Source of the DNA: an uncultured Bacilli bacterium
GTDB lineage: Bacteria; Bacillota_I; Bacilli_A; RF39; UBA660
DNA: 37,656 bases
Direction: 5' to 3'
Assembly (NCBI GenBank): GCA_944332005.1
Contig: CALVJD010000036.1
Span: 1 to 37,656 of the forward strand
Part shown: one piece after another, positions 3,580 to 30,401 of the stretch
Layout: each line of letters opens with the position of its first letter
How positions within the stretch are numbered: the stretch's first letter is position 1
The notes under the pieces: model-generated
Databases searched by the model: none
The model's input: only the letters and a program-made list of their open reading frames with translations
What the model was told of the DNA's origin: nothing
Position numbers and translations under genes: made by a program

Positions 3580-4704
3580 TTAAAAAGTTTCATTTAACCA
3601 TACAGTTGGTTTCCCTATATATTTCACAATATATTTGACAACACCTAAAACATCCTTTTCTCTTACTAGAGTATTATCAGGCGTCGGATTATTATCTCCT
3701 TTGGTACGAAAGTAAAGTTCTCCTCGATCTATTTCAATATCGATGACACGATGTGTTACCACATTCATACCTGTATTAAAGACCAGAATATCTCCCTCTT
3801 TTACATCTTTTCCACTCATTTTCTGATATATTACTGCATCCCCCTTGGCATATACAGGATTCATCGAATCCGATCCAATGGCAATCATTTTATAATCAAA
3901 AACCCCAGATACTAAAATGATAATTAAAGTTAAAAACATAATTGATGGAATCGTAATTAACTTCGCTAGATATGGTTTCATCTTCTGTCTAGCTTTTTCC
4001 CTATATGTAACAATTTTTTTCATGACAATATAAACTATGAATGGAAAAATTAAAAGTAAACTCGCCCTAATAAACGAACCTAACGCTGGGAAAATAGGTA
4101 AAATATATGGTGCGATCGAAAATGATAAACTATATAATAAAACAGGTACAAAATCAATATGATAAGTTATGTAACTGTATACAAATTGTTTTGCAATTGT
4201 CGGTATCACCGTTATACATATAAAATCAAATATCAAATAAAAATTATTTAAATTGGAATGAACAGCTATATTGACAATGTCCATAATAATATAAAAAATT
4301 GTCAATAAAATAATCGGTCTTTTATTTATTTTAGATTGATTTGCCACTGAAGAACGAATCAATTCTTGAAATAAAACTACAAATCCGATCGGTATAATGT
4401 TTACAAGAATAGATTTTAAAGAATGACTATATACCGATCTTGTAAATCCTGTAAAACAACCCAATAGATATATAACAATTAGATATATCAATAAAAGCAC
4501 AATCATGTAACGAATGCTTATACGCTTTAAATAATTTTTATTTCTATTCAATCCTAAAAAAGCTAAAATTACAATAAAAAATATTGTGTAAAATATGATA
4601 TCAAAGTATTCCAGTATAAAGACATTGGACGATAGAAAAATTTTAGAAAATACATAGATGAATAACATTAAAATTTCAATAATATAAATATCTGTTCTTT
4701 TCAT
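3580..4704 (-). CDS. sipW: SipW-type (S26B) signal peptidase I with a large N-terminal membrane domain
   Basis: The C-terminal 110 residues form an S26 signal peptidase of the ER/SipW type. Ser280 in IGSDSMNP is the predicted nucleophile, and His318 in VTHRVIDI takes the place of the Lys found in ordinary bacterial enzymes. KGDNNPTPD (335-343) supplies the late conserved Asp box. In B. subtilis SipW matures TasA and TapA. Here the protein is 374 residues against about 190 for SipW, because roughly 270 residues with about seven hydrophobic segments precede the catalytic domain. The gene lies between the camelysin-like gene and the DUF5305 gene, so the neighbours are its likely substrates. A strong hairpin sits just upstream, and no well-placed SD is seen before the ATG (GAGG lies 19 nt away inside the hairpin arm), so translation may be low. 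Confidence 0.85.
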   Translation of the reverse strand: MKRTDIYIIEILMLFIYVFSKIFLSSNVFILEYFDIIFYTIFFIVILAFLGLNRNKNYLKRISIRYMIVLLLIYLIVIYLLGCFTGFTRSVYSHSLKSILVNIIPIGFVVLFQELIRSSVANQSKINKRPIILLTIFYIIMDIVNIAVHSNLNNFYLIFDFICITVIPTIAKQFVYSYITYHIDFVPVLLYSLSFSIAPYILPIFPALGSFIRASLLLIFPFIVYIVMKKIVTYREKARQKMKPYLAKLITIPSIMFLTLIIILVSGVFDYKMIAIGSDSMNPVYAKGDAVIYQKMSGKDVKEGDILVFNTGMNVVTHRVIDIEIDRGELYFRTKGDNNPTPDNTLVREKDVLGVVKYIVKYIGKPTVWLNETF

Positions 4705-4762: not shown

Positions 4763-5320
4763 TTATGCTGATGGTTCCGTGTAAACTAATGTTGCTGTCA
4801 ATGTGGCTTGAACATTATTACTTGGTAAATCATCAGGATTTTCTGGCGCAACGTAAGAAACTCTTACAGTAAATTCTTCCGTTTGTGTACTTTGTAATAC
4901 TGTCGCATCTGCCACTGTATTGCTTGCTTGATCATAAGTAGTACCATTATATACAACTTCGAATTTCAAATAATTTTCATGTCCGGTTGTACCTGCCAAC
5001 GTAATTTCTTGTAATTGTGCATCAATAGTACCATTATTAATCACATCAACAGTAAATTCAAAAACATCCCCTGGTTCTGTTAACGTTACTTCATAAGTTA
5101 CGCTCGTTCCATTAATAGATGGAGTTCCAGTTGCAGCAATATCTCCAGTTTGCGTATATGAACCCTCATCGAAAGCTACATCCCAACTTGCTTTTTTGAT
5201 GCTAGCTGTACCGTTGATTGTCAAATTAGCACTGAATGTTGCAAAACCAATTGCCATAATAACAACAGCTACCACAAGTAAAATAATAATAATGCCAGAA
5301 TAACTAATTCTCTTTTCCAT
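4763..5320 (-). CDS. Camelysin/TasA-like SipW-dependent surface protein
   Basis: This 185-residue protein has a basic start and one strong hydrophobic stretch (about 8-30), ending in AIGFATFSANLTINGTASIK. That is the hallmark of SipW-processed TasA/CalY (peptidase M73 family) proteins. The remainder is a Thr/Val/Asn-rich beta-sandwich-like domain containing NNGTIDAQLQ, as seen in these families. A very strong SD (GGGAGGAGGGG) precedes the ATG. It is the first gene of the cluster and lies upstream of its presumed peptidase. By analogy it could form matrix fibres or a surface layer; any protease activity is doubtful because no HExxH motif is present. Confidence 0.8.
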   Translation of the reverse strand: MEKRISYSGIIIILLVVAVVIMAIGFATFSANLTINGTASIKKASWDVAFDEGSYTQTGDIAATGTPSINGTSVTYEVTLTEPGDVFEFTVDVINNGTIDAQLQEITLAGTTGHENYLKFEVVYNGTTYDQASNTVADATVLQSTQTEEFTVRVSYVAPENPDDLPSNNVQATLTATLVYTEPSA

Positions 5321-9417: not shown

Positions 9418-9449
9418 ATAAAAAATACAATAGCTTAACTATTGTATTT
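9418..9449 (-). terminator. Terminator after yneF
   Basis: An 11-bp stem (AAATACAATAG / CTATTGTATTT, 5-nt loop) overlaps the yneF stop and is followed by T residues on the minus strand. It separates the sirA-yneF unit from murF. Confidence 0.8.
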
Positions 9450-9662
9450 GCTCATCTGTTTCATCATTTGGTTCACCTGTTTTTGACTAGGTGTTCTCCC
9501 CATTTGACTCATCATTGCTTTGATCATTTGTTCATTAATTGGTGGATTTTTTTGCATGTACTTCTGCATATATTTACGAGCTAAAAAGAAACCCGCAATC
9601 GCACCTACGACAAGTCCACCAAAAATTTGTAATAAATCTATAAAAAATGCTCCCCAGTTCAT
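9435..9662 (-). CDS. yneF: YneF family (UPF0154) small membrane protein
   Basis: The 75-residue protein has one N-terminal TM helix (about 5-28, [18 protein letters not shown]) and a cytoplasmic tail with [20 protein letters not shown], the signature of YneF/UPF0154. The function is unknown. An AAGGAGG SD fixes the start. It lies 55 nt after the SirA-like gene with no terminator between them, as yneF follows sirA (yneE) in B. subtilis. Confidence 0.93.
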
Positions 9663-9717: not shown

Positions 9718-10146
9718 TTATACCTGATTATATGCATATATTCTCGTTCTAGACGTGATATCATAAAGCCAAAAATAATCTTTATTTTCAAAATCACAAA
9801 CAAATAAATAAGGACTATAAAAAGAAAGATTTAGAAAAACATTCGGTAAATTTTCTTTGGTAAGTAAGACAAGACATGAATAATTCAGTTCTAGTAAATA
9901 AGTTTGATCATATTTATGATCGACAAAATAATAACGTTTCTTTTTTTCCACGTGATACTTTTTACTAAAATATTCTTGTAATTGTGATACATCAAAAGGA
10001 TCACATATTTGATTATAGAGGGATAACCCTTCTGTATATTCCTTTGTCTCTCTTAATTTTTGTAACGATAGAAAAAGGAATGATTCCTTTCCAAGATAAG
10101 CCTCATAGCTAGAACGTCGCAAGTGAAAAACATAATATTTCCGCAT
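9718..10146 (-). CDS. sirA: SirA-like sporulation inhibitor of replication
   Basis: SirA binds DnaA domain I early in sporulation and blocks new rounds of replication. The 142-residue product begins MRKYYVFHLRRSSYEAYLGK, resembling the SirA start (YYxYxI...A..YFG+E), and its C-terminal YSPYLFVCDFENKDYFWLYD resembles the SPCFLAMDF...GWL segment of B. subtilis SirA. The ATG at 10146 has GGGTGAT upstream; a GTG at 10158 is less likely. Context is the best support: tkt-sirA-yneF is the Bacillus order. A perfect Spo0A box lies 42 nt upstream. Sequence similarity is low overall, so identity rests on both ends of the protein plus synteny. Confidence 0.75.
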   Translation of the reverse strand: MRKYYVFHLRRSSYEAYLGKESFLFLSLQKLRETKEYTEGLSLYNQICDPFDVSQLQEYFSKKYHVEKKKRYYFVDHKYDQTYLLELNYSCLVLLTKENLPNVFLNLSFYSPYLFVCDFENKDYFWLYDITSRTRIYAYNQV

Positions 10147-10187
10147 CGTATCACCCACTTTACTATAACAGAAAAAAGGATTACTAT

Positions 10188-10199: not shown

Positions 10200-10223
10200 A
10201 GAAACTACAAAAATAGTTTCTTT
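10192..10223 (-). terminator. Terminator of tkt
   Basis: A 10-bp stem (AAAGAAACTA / TAGTTTCTTT, 6-nt loop) overlaps the tkt stop codon and is followed by TTTTTT on the minus strand. Confidence 0.8.
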
Positions 10224-12169
10224 ACTCTTTCTTCTAATGATTTATAATCGTAGTGATATTTCTTTAAAATTTGATCACGAGAACCACTTGCTCCAAAATG
10301 ATCAATCGTTAGTAAGTAAGAAGAATTATAGACAAACTGATGCCATCCAAATGAAGAACCAGCTTCTATTACGACCGTTCTTATCCCTTTTGGTAATAGC
10401 GTGTCACGATACTCTTTTGGTTGTTCCAAAAACAATTCCATACAAGGCATACTGACGACTCGAAGATCGAGTTTTTCTCTTTCATATAACTTCGTAGCAA
10501 TCCGCAAAGCGGTATGTACTTGATTTCCTGTCGCTATCAAAATACCATGTAAGTATTGCTTCTCTTTACGAACAACATAAGCTCCCTTCGCTACTTCTTC
10601 ACTGCTAGTCGTTGCAAGTTGTTCTACTTCTACTTTCGAAAGAATGAGTGCACTTGGCTTTTCTTTTTCTTTTAAAATATAGTTCCAACACCCTAACAAT
10701 TCTTTTCCATCACAAGGACGATATACATTTAAATTAGGTTCACTACGTAACATAGCAAGTTGTTCTACTGGTTGATGAGTCGGCCCATCACTTCCAATCT
10801 CAATCGAATCATGAGAAAAAAGATAAATTACCGGGAGTTTCATTAAAGATGACATGCGAATCGCCGGTTTCAGATAATCTGAAAAAGTTAAGAAAGTAGA
10901 ACCAAACACCTGAAAATTAGTAAGAGCTAAGCCATTTAAAATAGCTCCCATAGCATGTTCTCTTACTCCAAACCAAATATTCTTCCCTAAGTAATTATCC
11001 TTTGTCAAATCATCGCCTTTATCGATATAACTCTTAACAGAAGTCGATAAATCAGCACTTCCACCAATAAAATAAGGAATTTCTCGAGCAATATGATTTA
11101 GGAAAGTTGCATTCGTCTTTCGGGTTGCTTCCTTCTCCTCTCTCATGAAAGAAAATGGCGTTTTTAATAAATCAATTTCTTTCTTTTTTCCAAAAATAAA
11201 ATCTAAATTAGACAAATCAGAATGTTCATTATGATAATCTTGATATCTTTTTGCCCATTCTTCATAAGCAAGCTTGGTATGTTTTAACATTTCAGCACGG
11301 AACATGTTTTCACTATTCGGCAAGGTTGTAAATGGTTCATGATCGATTCCCCACTTCTCTTTCAACTGATAAATATCTTCATCATCCAAGACTTTGCCGT
11401 GAACTTCGTGACTTCCCGCTAACTTCGAACCATTTCCAATAATCGTTCGTACTTCGATTAAAGTTGGTTTATCATTTTTCTTAGCTTTCGTAATTGTTCG
11501 ATCAATCTCAGCGACATTTTCTCCATCTTTGACCAGTTCAGTATCCCATCCCATCGCTTCAAAACGAGCACGAACATTCTCTGTAAATGCCATATCCGTC
11601 GATCCATCTAAACTTGTTTGATTCGAATCATATAAGACGATTAAATTGTTTAACTTCCAAGTTCCAGCTAAACTTGCCGCTTCATAGCTGATTCCTTCCA
11701 TTAAATCACCATCACCACATAATACATATACATGATAATGAAAAAGTGATTCCCCTTTCGAAGTGACAAAACGATGTTCTAATATTTTTTCTCCTAGTGC
11801 TAGTCCGACAGCTGTTGCAATCCCTTGACCAAGCGGACCTGTAGAAACCTCTACGCCCGGTGTAACCCCTACTTCTGGATGTCCAGGAGTACGAGAATCA
11901 ATTTGACGAAATTGCATCAAATCTTCTTTCGTTAAATAACCAGCCATATAAAGTGTCGCATATAAAATAGCCGAACCATGACCTGCAGACATGACGAAAC
12001 GATCACGGTTTGGCCATTTAGGATCATTTACATTAATATTGATATGATGAGCATACAAACAATATAGCATCGTAGCAGCATCCAACACGATACCCGAATG
12101 TCCATTTCCAGCCTTTTTAATCATATCGATTCCTAATGACTTCATATTATTGATTACTTGTTCTTGCAT
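10205..12169 (-). CDS. tkt: Transketolase
   Basis: Transketolase moves two-carbon ketol units in the non-oxidative pentose phosphate pathway using thiamine diphosphate. N-terminal PP domain: GNGHSG, GPLGQGIA (111-118), and the ThDP/metal motif GDGDLMEG (152-159) with DSNQTSLDG about 30 residues later. PYR domain: FGVREHAM with the conserved catalytic Glu404, then SHDSIEIGSDGPTHQP. Length 654 is normal. AGAGGTGG precedes the ATG. The gene has its own promoter and terminator and sits between the SOS microprotein gene and sirA, as tkt does in Bacillus. Confidence 0.97.
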   Translation of the reverse strand: MQEQVINNMKSLGIDMIKKAGNGHSGIVLDAATMLYCLYAHHININVNDPKWPNRDRFVMSAGHGSAILYATLYMAGYLTKEDLMQFRQIDSRTPGHPEVGVTPGVEVSTGPLGQGIATAVGLALGEKILEHRFVTSKGESLFHYHVYVLCGDGDLMEGISYEAASLAGTWKLNNLIVLYDSNQTSLDGSTDMAFTENVRARFEAMGWDTELVKDGENVAEIDRTITKAKKNDKPTLIEVRTIIGNGSKLAGSHEVHGKVLDDEDIYQLKEKWGIDHEPFTTLPNSENMFRAEMLKHTKLAYEEWAKRYQDYHNEHSDLSNLDFIFGKKKEIDLLKTPFSFMREEKEATRKTNATFLNHIAREIPYFIGGSADLSTSVKSYIDKGDDLTKDNYLGKNIWFGVREHAMGAILNGLALTNFQVFGSTFLTFSDYLKPAIRMSSLMKLPVIYLFSHDSIEIGSDGPTHQPVEQLAMLRSEPNLNVYRPCDGKELLGCWNYILKEKEKPSALILSKVEVEQLATTSSEEVAKGAYVVRKEKQYLHGILIATGNQVHTALRIATKLYEREKLDLRVVSMPCMELFLEQPKEYRDTLLPKGIRTVVIEAGSSFGWHQFVYNSSYLLTIDHFGASGSRDQILKKYHYDYKSLEERVKKLFL

Positions 12170-12227: not shown

Positions 12228-12374
12228 TTATTGCATATTCATGACAATCATTTCTCTATCACTTTCGACTTTATTTTCTTCCATTTTTTTTGATGAACTA
12301 GCATTAAAATAAGCAAACCCAATCACAAAAATGGCAAATCCAATCATAACTTTACTTTTTAAAATTTCTTTCAT
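12228..12374 (-). CDS. 48-residue SOS-controlled membrane microprotein (YneA position)
   Basis: This short ORF encodes a basic MKEILKSKV start, one TM helix (about 8-25, IGFAIFVIGFAYF) and a charged 23-residue tail (SSKKMEENKVESDREM...). GGGAGG lies 7 nt before the ATG. Its promoter is TTGACA-17-TAAGAT with a perfect LexA box filling the spacer, and a second LexA box lies just upstream. It is divergent from lexA and followed by tkt, the place of the SOS division inhibitor yneA in Bacillus. YneA is about 100 residues with a TM helix and a LysM domain; no LysM is present here. SOS-induced division arrest is inference from position and topology. It resembles no family I recognise by sequence. 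Confidence 0.8.
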   Translation of the reverse strand: MKEILKSKVMIGFAIFVIGFAYFNASSSKKMEENKVESDREMIVMNMQ

Positions 12375-12398
12375 ACTATTCCTCCCTTTGTTGATTTC

Positions 12399-12427
12399 AT
12401 CTTATCACGAACGATTGTTCGTGTCAA
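12399..12427 (-). promoter_or_regulatory. LexA-controlled promoter of the SOS microprotein gene
   Basis: On the minus strand a perfect TTGACA (12422-12427), a 17-nt spacer and TAAGAT (12399-12404). The spacer contains the complete LexA box at 12408-12421, so bound LexA would occlude RNA polymerase. Confidence 0.85.
12408..12421. promoter_or_regulatory. LexA (SOS) box 1
   Basis: CGAACGATTGTTCG is a perfect palindrome-type match to the Firmicutes CGAAC-N4-GTTCG operator, sitting between the -35 and -10 of the microprotein gene. Confidence 0.92.
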
Positions 12428-12435
12428 TATCTTTA

Positions 12436-12449
12436 TGAACATTCGTTCG
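12436..12449. promoter_or_regulatory. LexA (SOS) box 2
   Basis: TGAACATTCGTTCG matches the LexA operator with one changed base at the left end. It lies 8 bp upstream of the -35 of the microprotein gene and may give cooperative repression. Confidence 0.8.
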
Positions 12450-12531
12450 TCTTTTGACACTAGCGTTGTCAAAAAATCATTACTATTTCAATCTTTTCCT
12501 TATGATAATTTCCAATTTTTTTACCTTTTTA

Positions 12532-12545
12532 CGAACAATTGTTTG
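12532..12545. promoter_or_regulatory. LexA (SOS) box 3, lexA operator
   Basis: CGAACAATTGTTTG matches the LexA operator with one mismatch and overlaps the -35 of lexA, as expected for autorepression. Confidence 0.87.
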
Positions 12546-12571
12546 ACTTTTCTATTAATATATGGTAAACT
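12543..12571 (+). promoter_or_regulatory. Promoter of lexA
   Basis: TTGACT (12543-12548), 17-nt spacer, TAAACT (12566-12571) with an extended TG at 12563-12564. LexA box 3 overlaps its -35. Confidence 0.8.
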
Positions 12572-12605: not shown

Positions 12606-13223
12606 TTGGAAAAACTCACAAGAAAACAAGAAGAAATTATGAATTTTATAAAAGAATATGTCGTATCACATGGATATCCACCTACTGTTCGCGAAATAGC
12701 GAAAGGAGTTGGCGTATCAAGTCCAGCTACCATTCAAGCCCATTTAAACAACTTGGAACATAAAGGTGTTATCAAAAAAGATGGAGCCAAAAATCGTGCG
12801 ATTGAATTATTAGTTGAAAATGAATTTGCTATGCAAGATACAAATGTTGTCGAAGTACCACTTTTAGGAAAAATTACTGCTGGTAATCCTATCGAAGCAA
12901 TCGAAAGACCAGATGAATACTTTTCTTTACCAGCATACTTAATCCCGAATAACAAAGAAGTATTTACGTTACTCGTAAGTGGAAACAGCATGATCAATGC
13001 CGGAATCTTCGATGGCGATATCGTAATCGTCGAAAAGCAAAATACAGCACGTAACGGAGAAATCGTCGTAGCCATGACAGATGAAAATGAAGTTACTTTA
13101 AAAACCTTTTACAAAGAGGCAAATTATTTCCGCCTTCAACCAGAAAATGATACGATGGATCCCATCATTTTAAATAATGTAACAATTCTTGGAAAAGCAG
13201 TTGGTTTATATCGTAAATTATAG
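12606..13223 (+). CDS. lexA: LexA, SOS repressor
   Basis: LexA represses SOS genes and cleaves itself when RecA filaments form on damaged DNA. The start is TTG with GGAGG 8 nt upstream. The N-terminal winged-helix domain (1-70) has the family fingerprint LTRKQEEIMNFI, GYPPTVREIA and SSPATIQAHL. The self-cleavage site is Ala92-Gly93 (GKITAGNPIEA), and the Ser128 (VSGNSM) and Lys166 (VTLKTF) dyad is intact. Length 205 equals B. subtilis LexA. The three CGAAC-type boxes in the divergent region are its presumed operators. It ends at a strong terminator. Confidence 0.98.
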   Translation: MEKLTRKQEEIMNFIKEYVVSHGYPPTVREIAKGVGVSSPATIQAHLNNLEHKGVIKKDGAKNRAIELLVENEFAMQDTNVVEVPLLGKITAGNPIEAIERPDEYFSLPAYLIPNNKEVFTLLVSGNSMINAGIFDGDIVIVEKQNTARNGEIVVAMTDENEVTLKTFYKEANYFRLQPENDTMDPIILNNVTILGKAVGLYRKL

Positions 13224-14840: not shown

Positions 14841-16100
14841 CTAATATTTTTTATTTCTTTTTTTACTTTTTTTCTTAGTGAGTTCTATTTGTGCATTCTT
14901 TAAGTAACTTTTTGTAACCGAAAGTTCGCCTCTCGCTCTGTCTATTTCTTTTTTCAATTCTTCTAATTGGATTATTTTTTGAGAAATTGACTTGTTCGTT
15001 TCTTCTTTTTGATCGATCAATTCTTGTAGTTCTAACCATAGTGTTTCTACATCTAAGCCTAAATTTTTTAATATTGCTCTTTGTAATTCTACTACTTCAT
15101 TTTTATCTAATTCATAGTTAGTCGGTGAAAGTTTCACTTGAGGCACACATTCCATTTGATTGGTTAATACAAAACTATTTTTAAACAGATCTACCGCTAC
15201 ACTGGTTTCATATTTTTGTCTTTTTTGATTTGACGTCATTGGAAGAATGATCGCTTCATTTAAACGGCTATTAATTCGTGAATCACTTGATACTACGACA
15301 CATGGGTGTTTTCCAGTAGGATTGTCCTCACTCGCTCTATCAGGAAAATGATACCAATAAATATCATATTGATGAGCTGATTTTGGTGCTAAAGTAGAAC
15401 CTTCTTCCACTTTTTTTGATGATTCATAATGATCTTCACAATACATTTTCTCTTCGATAATATGGTTTTCGTTTTCTTTCATGATAATCCAATTATGAAT
15501 AATAGTTTCATTTTGCATAATTTCTTTATCCGTTAAATTGATAAATTGGTTAAAATAGACATATTGACAATAAACTTTTTTATTAAGTGTTTCAAATATA
15601 GGAGAAAGTTTCTTTAATTTTTTTAAAAGAAGGATTTTCTTCTGATGATCTTCTTGAAAAAACATCCTCGTCTTGCTCATATATTCCATATAATCATGGT
15701 TTAATTTTCTTTCTTTATTCATGAAATAAAAAATTCTTGCATTGTCTTCCACTTCTAAACTTAATTCATAAATTTTAGCTTTGTACTCATCATCAGTCTT
15801 GAATTGATCTAATACATAGTTTTGGCGATCTAATTGATATACGCTAATTTTACGTTTGATGCCGTCGACTTTAAAAGAAGAAACAGCTGTCAATCCTCCT
15901 GGAAAAAGGGGTTCATCATAATGGCTCTTTAAATTTTCTACATCATGTTTGTTCATTTTTATTGTTTTACTTTCCGCTAATTTCATCCAATTATAATAGG
16001 TTGGAATAGAAATTTCTAATTTTTGAGCAATCTCACTTACTTTTTTACCTTCTTTTTTCCATTGCAATAATAGTGCTAGTTTATCTTCTGTAACTTTCAT
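14841..16100 (-). CDS. HTH - PemK/MazF-like - coiled-coil fusion protein
   Basis: This 419-residue protein begins with a helix-turn-helix (about 7-42, KVSEIAQKLEISIPTYYNWM), followed by about 200 residues of unrecognised charged, mostly helical sequence. A PemK/MazF-like domain (about 244-345) follows: YDIYWYHFPD, a GKHPCVVVSSD strand where MazF proteins carry RPxxVis, and AIILPMTSN matching the PLTS strand. The tail (about 350-419) is a coiled coil ending in a Lys-rich stretch. MazF/PemK toxins are ribosome-independent RNases of about 110 residues with a separate antitoxin; here no antitoxin gene is adjacent and the domain is embedded. It might be an RNase, a degenerate binding module or a regulator. 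Start: AAGGAAGA SD behind a consensus promoter. Confidence 0.7.
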   Translation of the reverse strand: MKVTEDKLALLLQWKKEGKKVSEIAQKLEISIPTYYNWMKLAESKTIKMNKHDVENLKSHYDEPLFPGGLTAVSSFKVDGIKRKISVYQLDRQNYVLDQFKTDDEYKAKIYELSLEVEDNARIFYFMNKERKLNHDYMEYMSKTRMFFQEDHQKKILLLKKLKKLSPIFETLNKKVYCQYVYFNQFINLTDKEIMQNETIIHNWIIMKENENHIIEEKMYCEDHYESSKKVEEGSTLAPKSAHQYDIYWYHFPDRASEDNPTGKHPCVVVSSDSRINSRLNEAIILPMTSNQKRQKYETSVAVDLFKNSFVLTNQMECVPQVKLSPTNYELDKNEVVELQRAILKNLGLDVETLWLELQELIDQKEETNKSISQKIIQLEELKKEIDRARGELSVTKSYLKNAQIELTKKKSKKRNKKY

Positions 16101-22625: not shown

Positions 22626-23402
22626 CTATTCCATTAACTTCTTAATATTTTCTAAACCGCTTTTTTCTAACCTGGAAATTTGTGCTTGACTAATTCCAAT
22701 TTCTTCTGCTAGTTCCATCTGGGTCTTTCCTACGATGTAGCGTTCCATCAAAATGTAACGTTCTTTTTCTTTTAATCCTTCTAAAGCAGCTTTTAAAGAA
22801 ATACGAGTATCGATCACTTCTGATCGATTACTTTTATCCTCCAGTTGATCAGCTAGATAGATGGTATCGCCACCATCGTTATAAATGGGTTCGAACATAC
22901 TGATCGTATCACGCATCGAATCAAGTGCATTTTGAATTTCACAAACAGGTATTCCCAATTCTTTCGAAACCTCTTCTAAAGTAGCTTCCCTGCCATGAAG
23001 AGAGGTTAATGCTTCTTTTGTACGTAGAGCTTTATATGCCAGATCTTTAATACTTCTAGCAATTCGAATACTATTATTATCGCGCAAGAAGCGTTTTAAT
23101 TCCCCTACGATCATAGGGACTGCATACGTACTGAACTTCACTTCATGAGACAAATCAAAATTATCGATGGCCTTTATTAGCCCAATACAGCCTACTTGGA
23201 ACAGATCATCCATGTTATCCGTACGATTATTAAATCGTTTTAAAATGCTGAGGACAAGCTTTAAATTTCCATTTACGAGATCATCTTTCGCAAAGGGATC
23301 TCCAGCTTGCATCTTCTTGAACAATGCCATCTGTTCTTCACTACTTAATACTTTAATATTCGCAGTATTCACGCCACATATTTCGACTTTGTGACGTGCC
23401 AT
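22626..23402 (-). CDS. sigG: Forespore sigma factor SigG
   Basis: SigG directs late forespore transcription. The 258-residue protein opens with RHKVEICGVNTANI, nearly identical to the diagnostic SigG N-terminus. Region 2 has VNGNLKLVLSI, DDLFQVGCIGLIKAIDNFD and VKFSTYAVPMIVGE; FEPIYNDGGDTIY is a SigG hallmark; region 4 ends GKTQMELAEEIGISQAQISRLE. The GGAG SD is inside a long hairpin (23403-23446), and a SigG-like promoter overlaps it. In B. subtilis sigG lies next to sigE; here it is separated by about 5.5 kb of other genes. Confidence 0.97.
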   Translation of the reverse strand: MARHKVEICGVNTANIKVLSSEEQMALFKKMQAGDPFAKDDLVNGNLKLVLSILKRFNNRTDNMDDLFQVGCIGLIKAIDNFDLSHEVKFSTYAVPMIVGELKRFLRDNNSIRIARSIKDLAYKALRTKEALTSLHGREATLEEVSKELGIPVCEIQNALDSMRDTISMFEPIYNDGGDTIYLADQLEDKSNRSEVIDTRISLKAALEGLKEKERYILMERYIVGKTQMELAEEIGISQAQISRLEKSGLENIKKLME

Positions 23403-28924: not shown

Positions 28925-29617
28925 TTATTCACGGACGATATTCTTCAATTTTCGAATCACTTTCTTTTCGATTCTAGAAATATAGGATTGACTGATGTTT
29001 AAAAGATCGGCTACTTCTTTTTGTGTCATCTCCTTATTATTATAAAGTCCGTAGCGCAAGATCATAATTTGTTTGTCACGACCACTTAACTTGTCAATTT
29101 CACGATATAAAAGATACTTTTCGGTCTCTTCTTCCAATCCTTTTGTAACAATATCGGAGTCTGTTCCTAAAATATCTTCTAAGCGTAGTTCATTTCCTTC
29201 TGCATCATAGCTTAAACTATCTTCGAAACTAACTTCTCCTCTTCTCTTTTTATTTTTTCTTAAAAACATCAAAATTTCATTATCGATACATCGAGAGGCA
29301 TAAGTCGCTAGTTTGATGTTTTTTCCTAATTTATAAGTATTGATCCCTTTGATTAAGCCAATCGTTCCAATACTGACTAAATCTTCTAAATCAATTCCTG
29401 TATTTTCATACTTCTTTGACAAAAAAACAACTAATCGCAAATTGTGCTCAATCAGTTTACTTCGCGCACTCATATCCCCTTCCATACTTCGTTCGACATA
29501 ATAGGTTTCTTCTTCTTTCGAAAGTGGTTCTGGTAATTTATCGGCACTTCCCACATAAAAGCATGGATTACTAATACGAAATAAACGAACAATCAACTGC
29601 ATCATTTTTCTAAACAT
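28925..29617 (-). CDS. sigE: Mother-cell sigma factor SigE (pro-sigma-E)
   Basis: SigE drives early mother-cell transcription and is made as an inactive precursor. The 230-residue protein starts with a basic/hydrophobic pro-sequence (MFRKMMQLIVRLFRI...) ahead of FYVGSADKLPEPLSKEEE, which aligns with the processing region of B. subtilis pro-SigE. Region 2: IEHNLRLVVFLSKKYENTG, DLVSIGTIGLIKGINTY, KLATYASRCIDNEILMFLR. Region 4: KEVADLLNISQSYISRIEKK. The start overlaps the end of spoIIGA by 8 nt behind a GGAGGGG SD, indicating coupling to its processing protease. Confidence 0.97.
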   Translation of the reverse strand: MFRKMMQLIVRLFRISNPCFYVGSADKLPEPLSKEEETYYVERSMEGDMSARSKLIEHNLRLVVFLSKKYENTGIDLEDLVSIGTIGLIKGINTYKLGKNIKLATYASRCIDNEILMFLRKNKKRRGEVSFEDSLSYDAEGNELRLEDILGTDSDIVTKGLEEETEKYLLYREIDKLSGRDKQIMILRYGLYNNKEMTQKEVADLLNISQSYISRIEKKVIRKLKNIVRE

Positions 29618-30401
29618 AATTCCCCTCCAATATTTTCTCTTGTAAGATACAATCTACTCCATCAATTGCTATTTTGTCTTTCAAAATTCCTACTAATACA
29701 TGTTTTCGAACTCCAATTCCTTTGATTTCTAGGTGATCGATTTTCATACAGGGCAACATGGCAAATCCACTTGCGGTTTGATACGGAACTAAGATAGGAT
29801 TTTTAAGATGTCGTTCTAGTTTTCGACTATGAATTAAAAGAATCGGTTTCCCAGTATAAGGGTCTTTTAGATGATTTCCAGTATCTAGAAATCCTCTTAA
29901 TTCATACGTACGATGATCAATCGATAGCTTCACTTGATAATAATGAGCATATTGATTTTTTAAAGCAATACCTTGTCTTATATAAATATATAAAATAAGT
30001 GGTGAAAATATGATTAAAACAATCATGTTGATGCTAAGTCCATTATGATAAAACACTAGTCCTTCTTGCTTATAAGAGAACGTCACATTCAAAAAATATA
30101 AAATTCCTCCTAATACAATACTAGTCATATATAAGAATAGAAGATTTTTTCCGGTATACCGGATATCTCGATAACCGAAACTCACTAGTAACATGATCAG
30201 ACTCATTCCTAACTTAAAGAAAAATAATGTGAAGGAATTCATCGGTAGAAATAAAAGAAAAACCGATGCTCCACCGACGATACCACCTAACACTAATCTG
30301 CTTAACTTCGCACCTCTTCTAAGAAGGAAAGAAACGGATAAAAGGAGTAAAAAATCAAAGGCAAAATTTAAAAAGAATAACACATCGATATATACTTTCA
30401 T
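29610..30401 (-). CDS. spoIIGA: SpoIIGA, pro-sigma-E processing aspartic protease
   Basis: SpoIIGA cleaves pro-SigE in the mother cell in response to a forespore signal (SpoIIR). The 263-residue protein has five or six N-terminal TM helices (to about 143) and a C-terminal protease domain with LRGFLDTGNHLKDPYTGKP, the catalytic Asp at about 173. It is about 45 residues shorter than the B. subtilis protein. It begins with an AGGTGAT SD and overlaps sigE. A TATACT -10 lies 17 nt before the start, in the T run of the ftsZ terminator. Confidence 0.95.
   Translation of the reverse strand: MKVYIDVLFFLNFAFDFLLLLSVSFLLRRGAKLSRLVLGGIVGGASVFLLFLPMNSFTLFFFKLGMSLIMLLVSFGYRDIRYTGKNLLFLYMTSIVLGGILYFLNVTFSYKQEGLVFYHNGLSINMIVLIIFSPLILYIYIRQGIALKNQYAHYYQVKLSIDHRTYELRGFLDTGNHLKDPYTGKPILLIHSRKLERHLKNPILVPYQTASGFAMLPCMKIDHLEIKGIGVRKHVLVGILKDKIAIDGVDCILQEKILEGNYV

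Follow-up and report, generated by a model that had tools for sequence, protein, structure and literature searches.

A single-TM microprotein gene with a LexA-box promoter in the yneA position of uncultured gut Bacilli, a candidate SOS division inhibitor

Described SOS division inhibitors and the lexA-adjacent locus

The closest described systems are small membrane proteins that stop division after DNA damage. In Bacillus subtilis YneA, the transmembrane (TM) helix binds TM7 of FtsW and the LysM domain is required for inhibition, since YneA without LysM keeps its localisation and loses the inhibition of division (PMC13396833). Residues K5, E6, F10, V11 and F14 are required for toxicity and midcell localisation, and alanine changes at K5 and F10 abolish both (PMC13396833). 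The protein is cleared by CtpA and YlbL/DdcP (PMC6051672). SosA of Staphylococcus aureus is a LysM-less, lexA-divergent, single-TM SOS division inhibitor with no clear homology to YneA, in which a conserved outer segment by the membrane is essential and the loss of at least 30 C-terminal residues inactivates the protein (PMC6851548). Both SosA and YneA stop division at a late stage, and FtsW binding is predicted for several inhibitors of this kind (PMC6851548, PMC13396833). ChiZ of Mycobacterium tuberculosis, which has a LysM domain, and DivS of Corynebacterium glutamicum, which does not, are also single-TM SOS division inhibitors near lexA (PMC6851548); we liken them to the protein studied here by description. 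SidA of Caulobacter is likewise a small, DNA-damage-induced, single-TM division inhibitor that touches the FtsW complex (PMC13396833). However, it is alphaproteobacterial, is predicted to lie on the opposite side of FtsW TM7 and has no known similar arrangement next to lexA.

We analysed a window of 37,656 nucleotides from an uncultured Bacilli bacterium, in which an earlier note had described an unlisted, SOS-controlled ORF. The ORF, with its strong Shine-Dalgarno sequence, one TM helix and a polar tail, was recovered (Table 1), and its placement in the yneA position, divergent from lexA and next to tkt, was confirmed by the identification of both neighbours, after which sirA and yneF follow (lexA / ORF - tkt - sirA - yneF). 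The yneA neighbourhood of B. subtilis has the same order, plus yneB and ynzC, which are absent here between the ORF and tkt. A terminator was looked for between the ORF and tkt and none was found, so that some read-through into tkt is possible.

Table 1. Features of the lexA-microprotein region of the window
Feature	Position	Strand	Remarks
yneF (UPF0154)	9435..9662	-	PF03672, E 1.5e-29
sirA/yneE homologue (sporulation inhibitor of replication)	9718..10158	-	PF10747, 29.9 bits vs cutoff 26
tkt (transketolase)	10205..12169	-	58 nt downstream of microprotein stop, same strand
Microprotein gene	12228..12374	-	48 aa, ATG start, single TM; absent from annotation
Shine-Dalgarno core GGGAGGA	12380..12386	-	5 nt before ATG of microprotein gene
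-10 hexamer TAAGAT, microprotein promoter	12399..12404	-	17-nt spacer to -35
LexA box 1 CGAACAATCGTTCG	12408..12421	-	perfect palindrome; fills promoter spacer, begins right after -35
-35 hexamer TTGACA, microprotein promoter	12422..12427	-	found independently of the earlier note
LexA box 2 CGAACGAATGTTCA	12436..12449	-	one mismatch; 14 bp upstream of box 1
LexA box 3 CGAACAATTGTTTG	12532..12545	+	overlaps lexA promoter (autoregulation)
lexA promoter TTGACT-17-TAAACT	12543..12571	+	
lexA	12606..13223	+	PF01726 + PF00717; divergent from microprotein gene

Several other genes of the window were noted. The SirA homologue is accompanied by sigma-factor and SpoIIGA-like genes (9718-10158, 22626-23402 and 28925-30401 (-); SpoIIGA-like read from translations), and these suggest a sporulation programme in a gut genome of 1.1 Mb. 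A 419-aa protein (14841-16100 (-)) combines an N-terminal HTH with a PemK/MazF-like domain in its second half (PF02452, E 3e-13) and a charged, coiled-coil-looking end; it is unusually long for the MazF type and has no obvious partner. By reading, a secreted protein with an intein/Hint-like segment lies beside a signal-peptidase-like gene and a TasA-like protein (111-2519, 3580-4704 and 4763-5320, all -).

LexA operators and conservation of the gene

The promoter TTGACA-17-TAAGAT was found again independently, with a perfect LexA box in its spacer and a second box, bearing one mismatch, upstream of it, as the earlier note had proposed. The pattern CGAACNNNNGTTYG matched six sites in the 1.14-Mb genome while the reversed control pattern matched none. 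Two of the six lie within the 140-bp microprotein/lexA stretch, and the other four are upstream of recA, recG, an nrdD-type anaerobic ribonucleotide reductase and a GNAT-family gene. We take CGAACNNNNGTTYG to be the SOS box of this organism because its sites precede these four genes, the microprotein ORF and lexA. The same register was found across the relatives, the LexA box lying inside a promoter spacer of 16-18 nt at 137 of 152 distinct loci, directly after the -35 in 132 of these 137 and with a perfect TTGACA in 127. In most loci, 43-53 nt separate the first base of the nearest box from the downstream ATG. The -10 of the microprotein gene is only about 25 nt from its ATG, which leaves room for a very short mRNA leader only. 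At the level of the operator, the support for a predicted SOS control of the microprotein gene is thus very strong, as judged from the six genome sites and the shared register.

Two of the other sites deserve a record of their own. A perfect palindromic LexA box (G000:C4:17641-17654; L213, box at 1042) is located 49 nt upstream of the gene at 1091-1978, whose 295-aa product is weakly GNAT-like (PF00583, 21.3 bits) and would be an unexpected SOS target. At L215 a perfect box is present at 1033, upstream of the NrdD anaerobic ribonucleotide reductase gene that begins at 1129.

The search for similar short ORFs divergent from lexA covered 243 genomes of the GTDB family to which the window belongs (MAGs of gut Bacilli/Mycoplasmatota), 210 of which yielded a lexA gene. 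The divergent side was inspected at 198 lexA loci, some of which are one locus from two collections, and 182 of them showed a single-TM ORF preceded by a ribosome-binding site, its length being 40-56 aa in almost every case. Of these calls, at least two (L051 and L115) look false, leaving about 180 candidates, so that the gene, which the earlier note had described at one locus, is conserved in its relatives. Among named records, the best matches are MAGs of uncultured Bacilli, Tenericutes and Mycoplasmatota; Candidatus Pelethosoma and Candidatus Faecisoma are among them, and many come from gut or rumen. Some lexA-bearing relatives are without the microprotein gene; in one of them, a gene for an Rce1-like CAAX protease (L015:2226-2768) is divergent from lexA in its place.

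We considered whether the ORF could be spurious, or a decayed remnant of yneA, since it is short and had no match in the curated protein libraries searched. A strict requirement for ORF, TM helix and Shine-Dalgarno sequence was passed by 122 of 168 distinct loci, whereas all 1,680 dinucleotide shuffles failed it and the opposite strand gave no case. The dN/dS ratio was below 1 in all 20 independent close pairs (range 0.08-0.61, typically about 0.2), and was 0.08 for the window gene and its closest relative, a congener; the sequence is therefore selected as a protein. The shuffles, the opposite-strand control and the dN/dS values led us to reject a spurious ORF and, with the near-constant length across the large family sample, make either form of this explanation extremely improbable. 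The ORF and a second LexA box occurred together at 146 of the 168 loci and were both absent from 15, the discordant classes numbering 6 and 1 (Fisher p ~1e-15, which is overstated because the loci are related). The microprotein ORF, which occupies the yneA position behind a LexA-box promoter, is a genuine protein-coding gene maintained by selection.

Anatomy of the microprotein and comparison with known inhibitors

The window protein (MKEILKSKVMIGFAIFVIGFAYFNASSSKKMEENKVESDREMIVMNMQ) consists of a short basic N-terminus, a TM helix at about residues 9-26 and a polar tail of about 22 residues. Among 147 distinct microprotein sequences, the TM helix starts on average at residue 8.5, the tail has a mean of 21 residues, and the basic charge of the N-terminus exceeds that of the tail in 128. 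By the positive-inside rule, the basic N-terminus would lie inside and the acidic tail outside. AlphaFold2 models the window protein as one continuous helix (residues 2-47), the confidence being good as far as about residue 30 and lower over the tail. Because AlphaFold tends to draw the helices of short peptides too long, we did not accept the helical tail as shown.

The sequences fall into two groups (A3 and A4). Group A has the consensus MKExLKSKxMIxFxxxVLGxxY...KxE...IxxN and is best conserved in the charged N-terminus and the first turns of the TM helix. Group B carries ...R-x3-L..., with a near-invariant arginine just outside the TM helix. The two groups form one profile (46 columns aligned, hhalign probability 95%, E 2e-8) and share a juxtamembrane motif, basic..[LM][EN]. 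In the K-x4-F of group A, the K and F are among the most conserved positions, F being sometimes L and the conservation of K8 being fixed by the anchor used. This arrangement resembles K5/F10 of YneA, a likeness of two residues that could be chance and is suggestive only. Helical periodicity was not found in the conservation of the TM helix (p 0.93); a single binding face is consequently not demonstrated, and conservation of one helix face was rejected as support for it.

Scans of family members against Pfam and NCBIfam gave nothing above the curated cut-offs, PHROG matches were weak and mostly unnamed, and the PDB returned one chance-level match. Assignment to a known family was rejected, the ammonium-transporter and NAAT matches being generic TM similarity below the cutoffs. 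No LysM match was found in the microprotein, whose mean tail falls short of the 43 positions of a LysM domain. The domain itself does occur in the lineage, since other genes of the genome encode LysM proteins.

The likeness to YneA thus lies in the gene neighbourhood, the predicted SOS control and a TM helix near the N-terminus. YneA, however, has about 100 aa and an essential, peptidoglycan-binding LysM domain, whereas the microprotein is about half that size and without LysM, as the earlier note had said. With SosA it shares the lexA-divergent position, a predicted SOS control, a single TM helix, a tail predicted to be outside and the lack of LysM, but SosA has 77 aa, compared with 48 for the window protein and typically 40-56, down to 28, for the family. 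The juxtamembrane motif differs too, being basic..[LM][EN] here, whereas the important residues of SosA are Y40/E41 and D44/H45 in an outer segment conserved in staphylococci; no segment of the SosA kind is present in A3 or A4 when SosA is compared by its description. The proposal of a new type of inhibitor went too far, because SosA already combines a lack of LysM, a lexA-divergent position and a single TM helix in an SOS division inhibitor (PMC6851548). The novelty lies in the family, which is without a detectable relative in the libraries searched, has 40-56 aa (down to 28) and extends across most of the bacterial family. In the literature library searched, no paper combined SOS and RF39-type bacteria.

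A conserved 57-aa single-TM protein was found in a different taxonomic family of the class. It is divergent from lexA (L205:812-982, L227:170-340 and L228:176-346), with LexA-like boxes upstream and in the yneA position before ynzC, and is a second candidate SOS membrane microprotein. No homology between it and the microprotein was detected (hhalign probability 0.4%). YneA, SosA, the microprotein family and the 57-aa protein fit a lexA-adjacent slot that is conserved while its occupant changes.

A probable role in SOS-induced division arrest

The cell appears to have a wall and a divisome on which an inhibitor could act, since window ORFs were read from their translations, without a family scan, as ftsZ, ftsA, divIB-like, murB and murG. 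Three SEDS proteins are encoded in the genome, and an FtsW that exceeds the TIGR02614 cut-off lies next to mraY and a PBP of the SpoVD type. The genome also encodes a Prc-type S41 (C-terminal processing) protease that passes its cut-off and a Lon-PDZ protease of the YlbL/SepM kind that falls short of its own.

In our analysis, the functional reading with the best support is that the microprotein acts as an SOS division inhibitor. The yneA-type gene order, the LexA box in the promoter spacer, the co-occurrence of ORF and box, the selection on the protein, its anatomy, the division machinery present and the precedents of SosA and YneA argue for it. We infer that the microprotein is probably this lineage's SOS-induced cell-division inhibitor, acting like YneA and SosA at the septal synthase. 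The main evidence against this is the inactivity of LysM-less YneA and of SosA cut by at least 30 residues, from which a short-tailed protein might not inhibit. The lexA-bearing relatives that lack the gene and the absence of helical periodicity in the TM helix also weigh against it.

In the sequence of events that we infer for induction, topology, divisome binding, the FtsW target and proteolysis, DNA damage would lead to cleavage of LexA and the very strong TTGACA-17-TAAGAT promoter would fire. The microprotein would insert in the membrane with its basic N-terminus in and its acidic tail out, and its TM helix would dock on the synthase of septal peptidoglycan, for which FtsW, the target of YneA, is the most likely candidate. 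Septal wall synthesis might then be blocked by the outer segment next to the membrane (a basic residue, then L/M-E), although no LysM domain is present. Once LexA has built up again, its strong operator would stop synthesis of the microprotein, and the Prc-type and YlbL-like proteases would clear it, allowing division to resume.

The target could be another. The microprotein might inhibit division through a partner other than FtsW (FtsL/DivIC, PBP2B or another SEDS protein), or regulate an SOS-induced membrane protease or transporter. The two-hybrid contacts of YneA with FtsL, PBP2B and PBP1 (PMC13396833), the presence of three SEDS proteins in the genome and a very weak match of one microprotein member to the FtsL model (E 0.11) speak for such a partner. 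However, that match is at noise level, and YneA-resistant mutants had changes in FtsW only, with none in FtsL, DivIC or PBP2B (PMC13396833), and we consider these alternatives decidedly improbable.

The microprotein might instead be a membrane-stress peptide of the TisB/DinQ kind, which slows metabolism or depolarises the membrane and does not act on the divisome. TisB is under tight control by a small antisense RNA and is not known as a lexA neighbour. An antisense-RNA antitoxin and a structured mRNA leader mark toxins of this type, and the approximately 25 nt between the -10 and the ATG of the microprotein gene would accommodate a very short leader only. Tail-less microprotein variants as short as 28 aa (L018 and L092) are compatible with such a peptide, as is the precedent of Escherichia coli DinQ, an SOS-controlled, toxic, single-TM inner-membrane peptide of similar size (PMC3567139). 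DinQ, however, is tightly held by a small antisense RNA and is not a lexA neighbour, and no antisense element was noticed at the microprotein locus. The purifying selection, the juxtamembrane motif, the C-terminal pattern and the exact yneA position point to a specific partner rather than to membrane stress, which we regard as unlikely.

The natural short forms bear on the inhibitor reading as well. The 28-aa proteins of L018 and L092 and the 34-aa protein of L097 are tail-less, and the full LexA-box promoter is intact in all three. Such variants allow the tentative proposal that lineage-wide SOS inhibitors act essentially through the TM helix and a few juxtamembrane residues, without an extracellular domain.

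The microprotein family is probably a widespread, minimal variant of the SOS membrane division inhibitors. It is likely to be the effector of the DNA-damage checkpoint in a large, uncultured group of gut bacteria, encoded by a gene small enough to escape annotation. Its natural minimal variants bear on how much beyond the TM helix an inhibitor needs in order to stop FtsW. If the TM helix and its juxtamembrane residues are enough, intramembrane contact with the septal synthase would suffice to stop division, against the indication from the LysM deletions of YneA.
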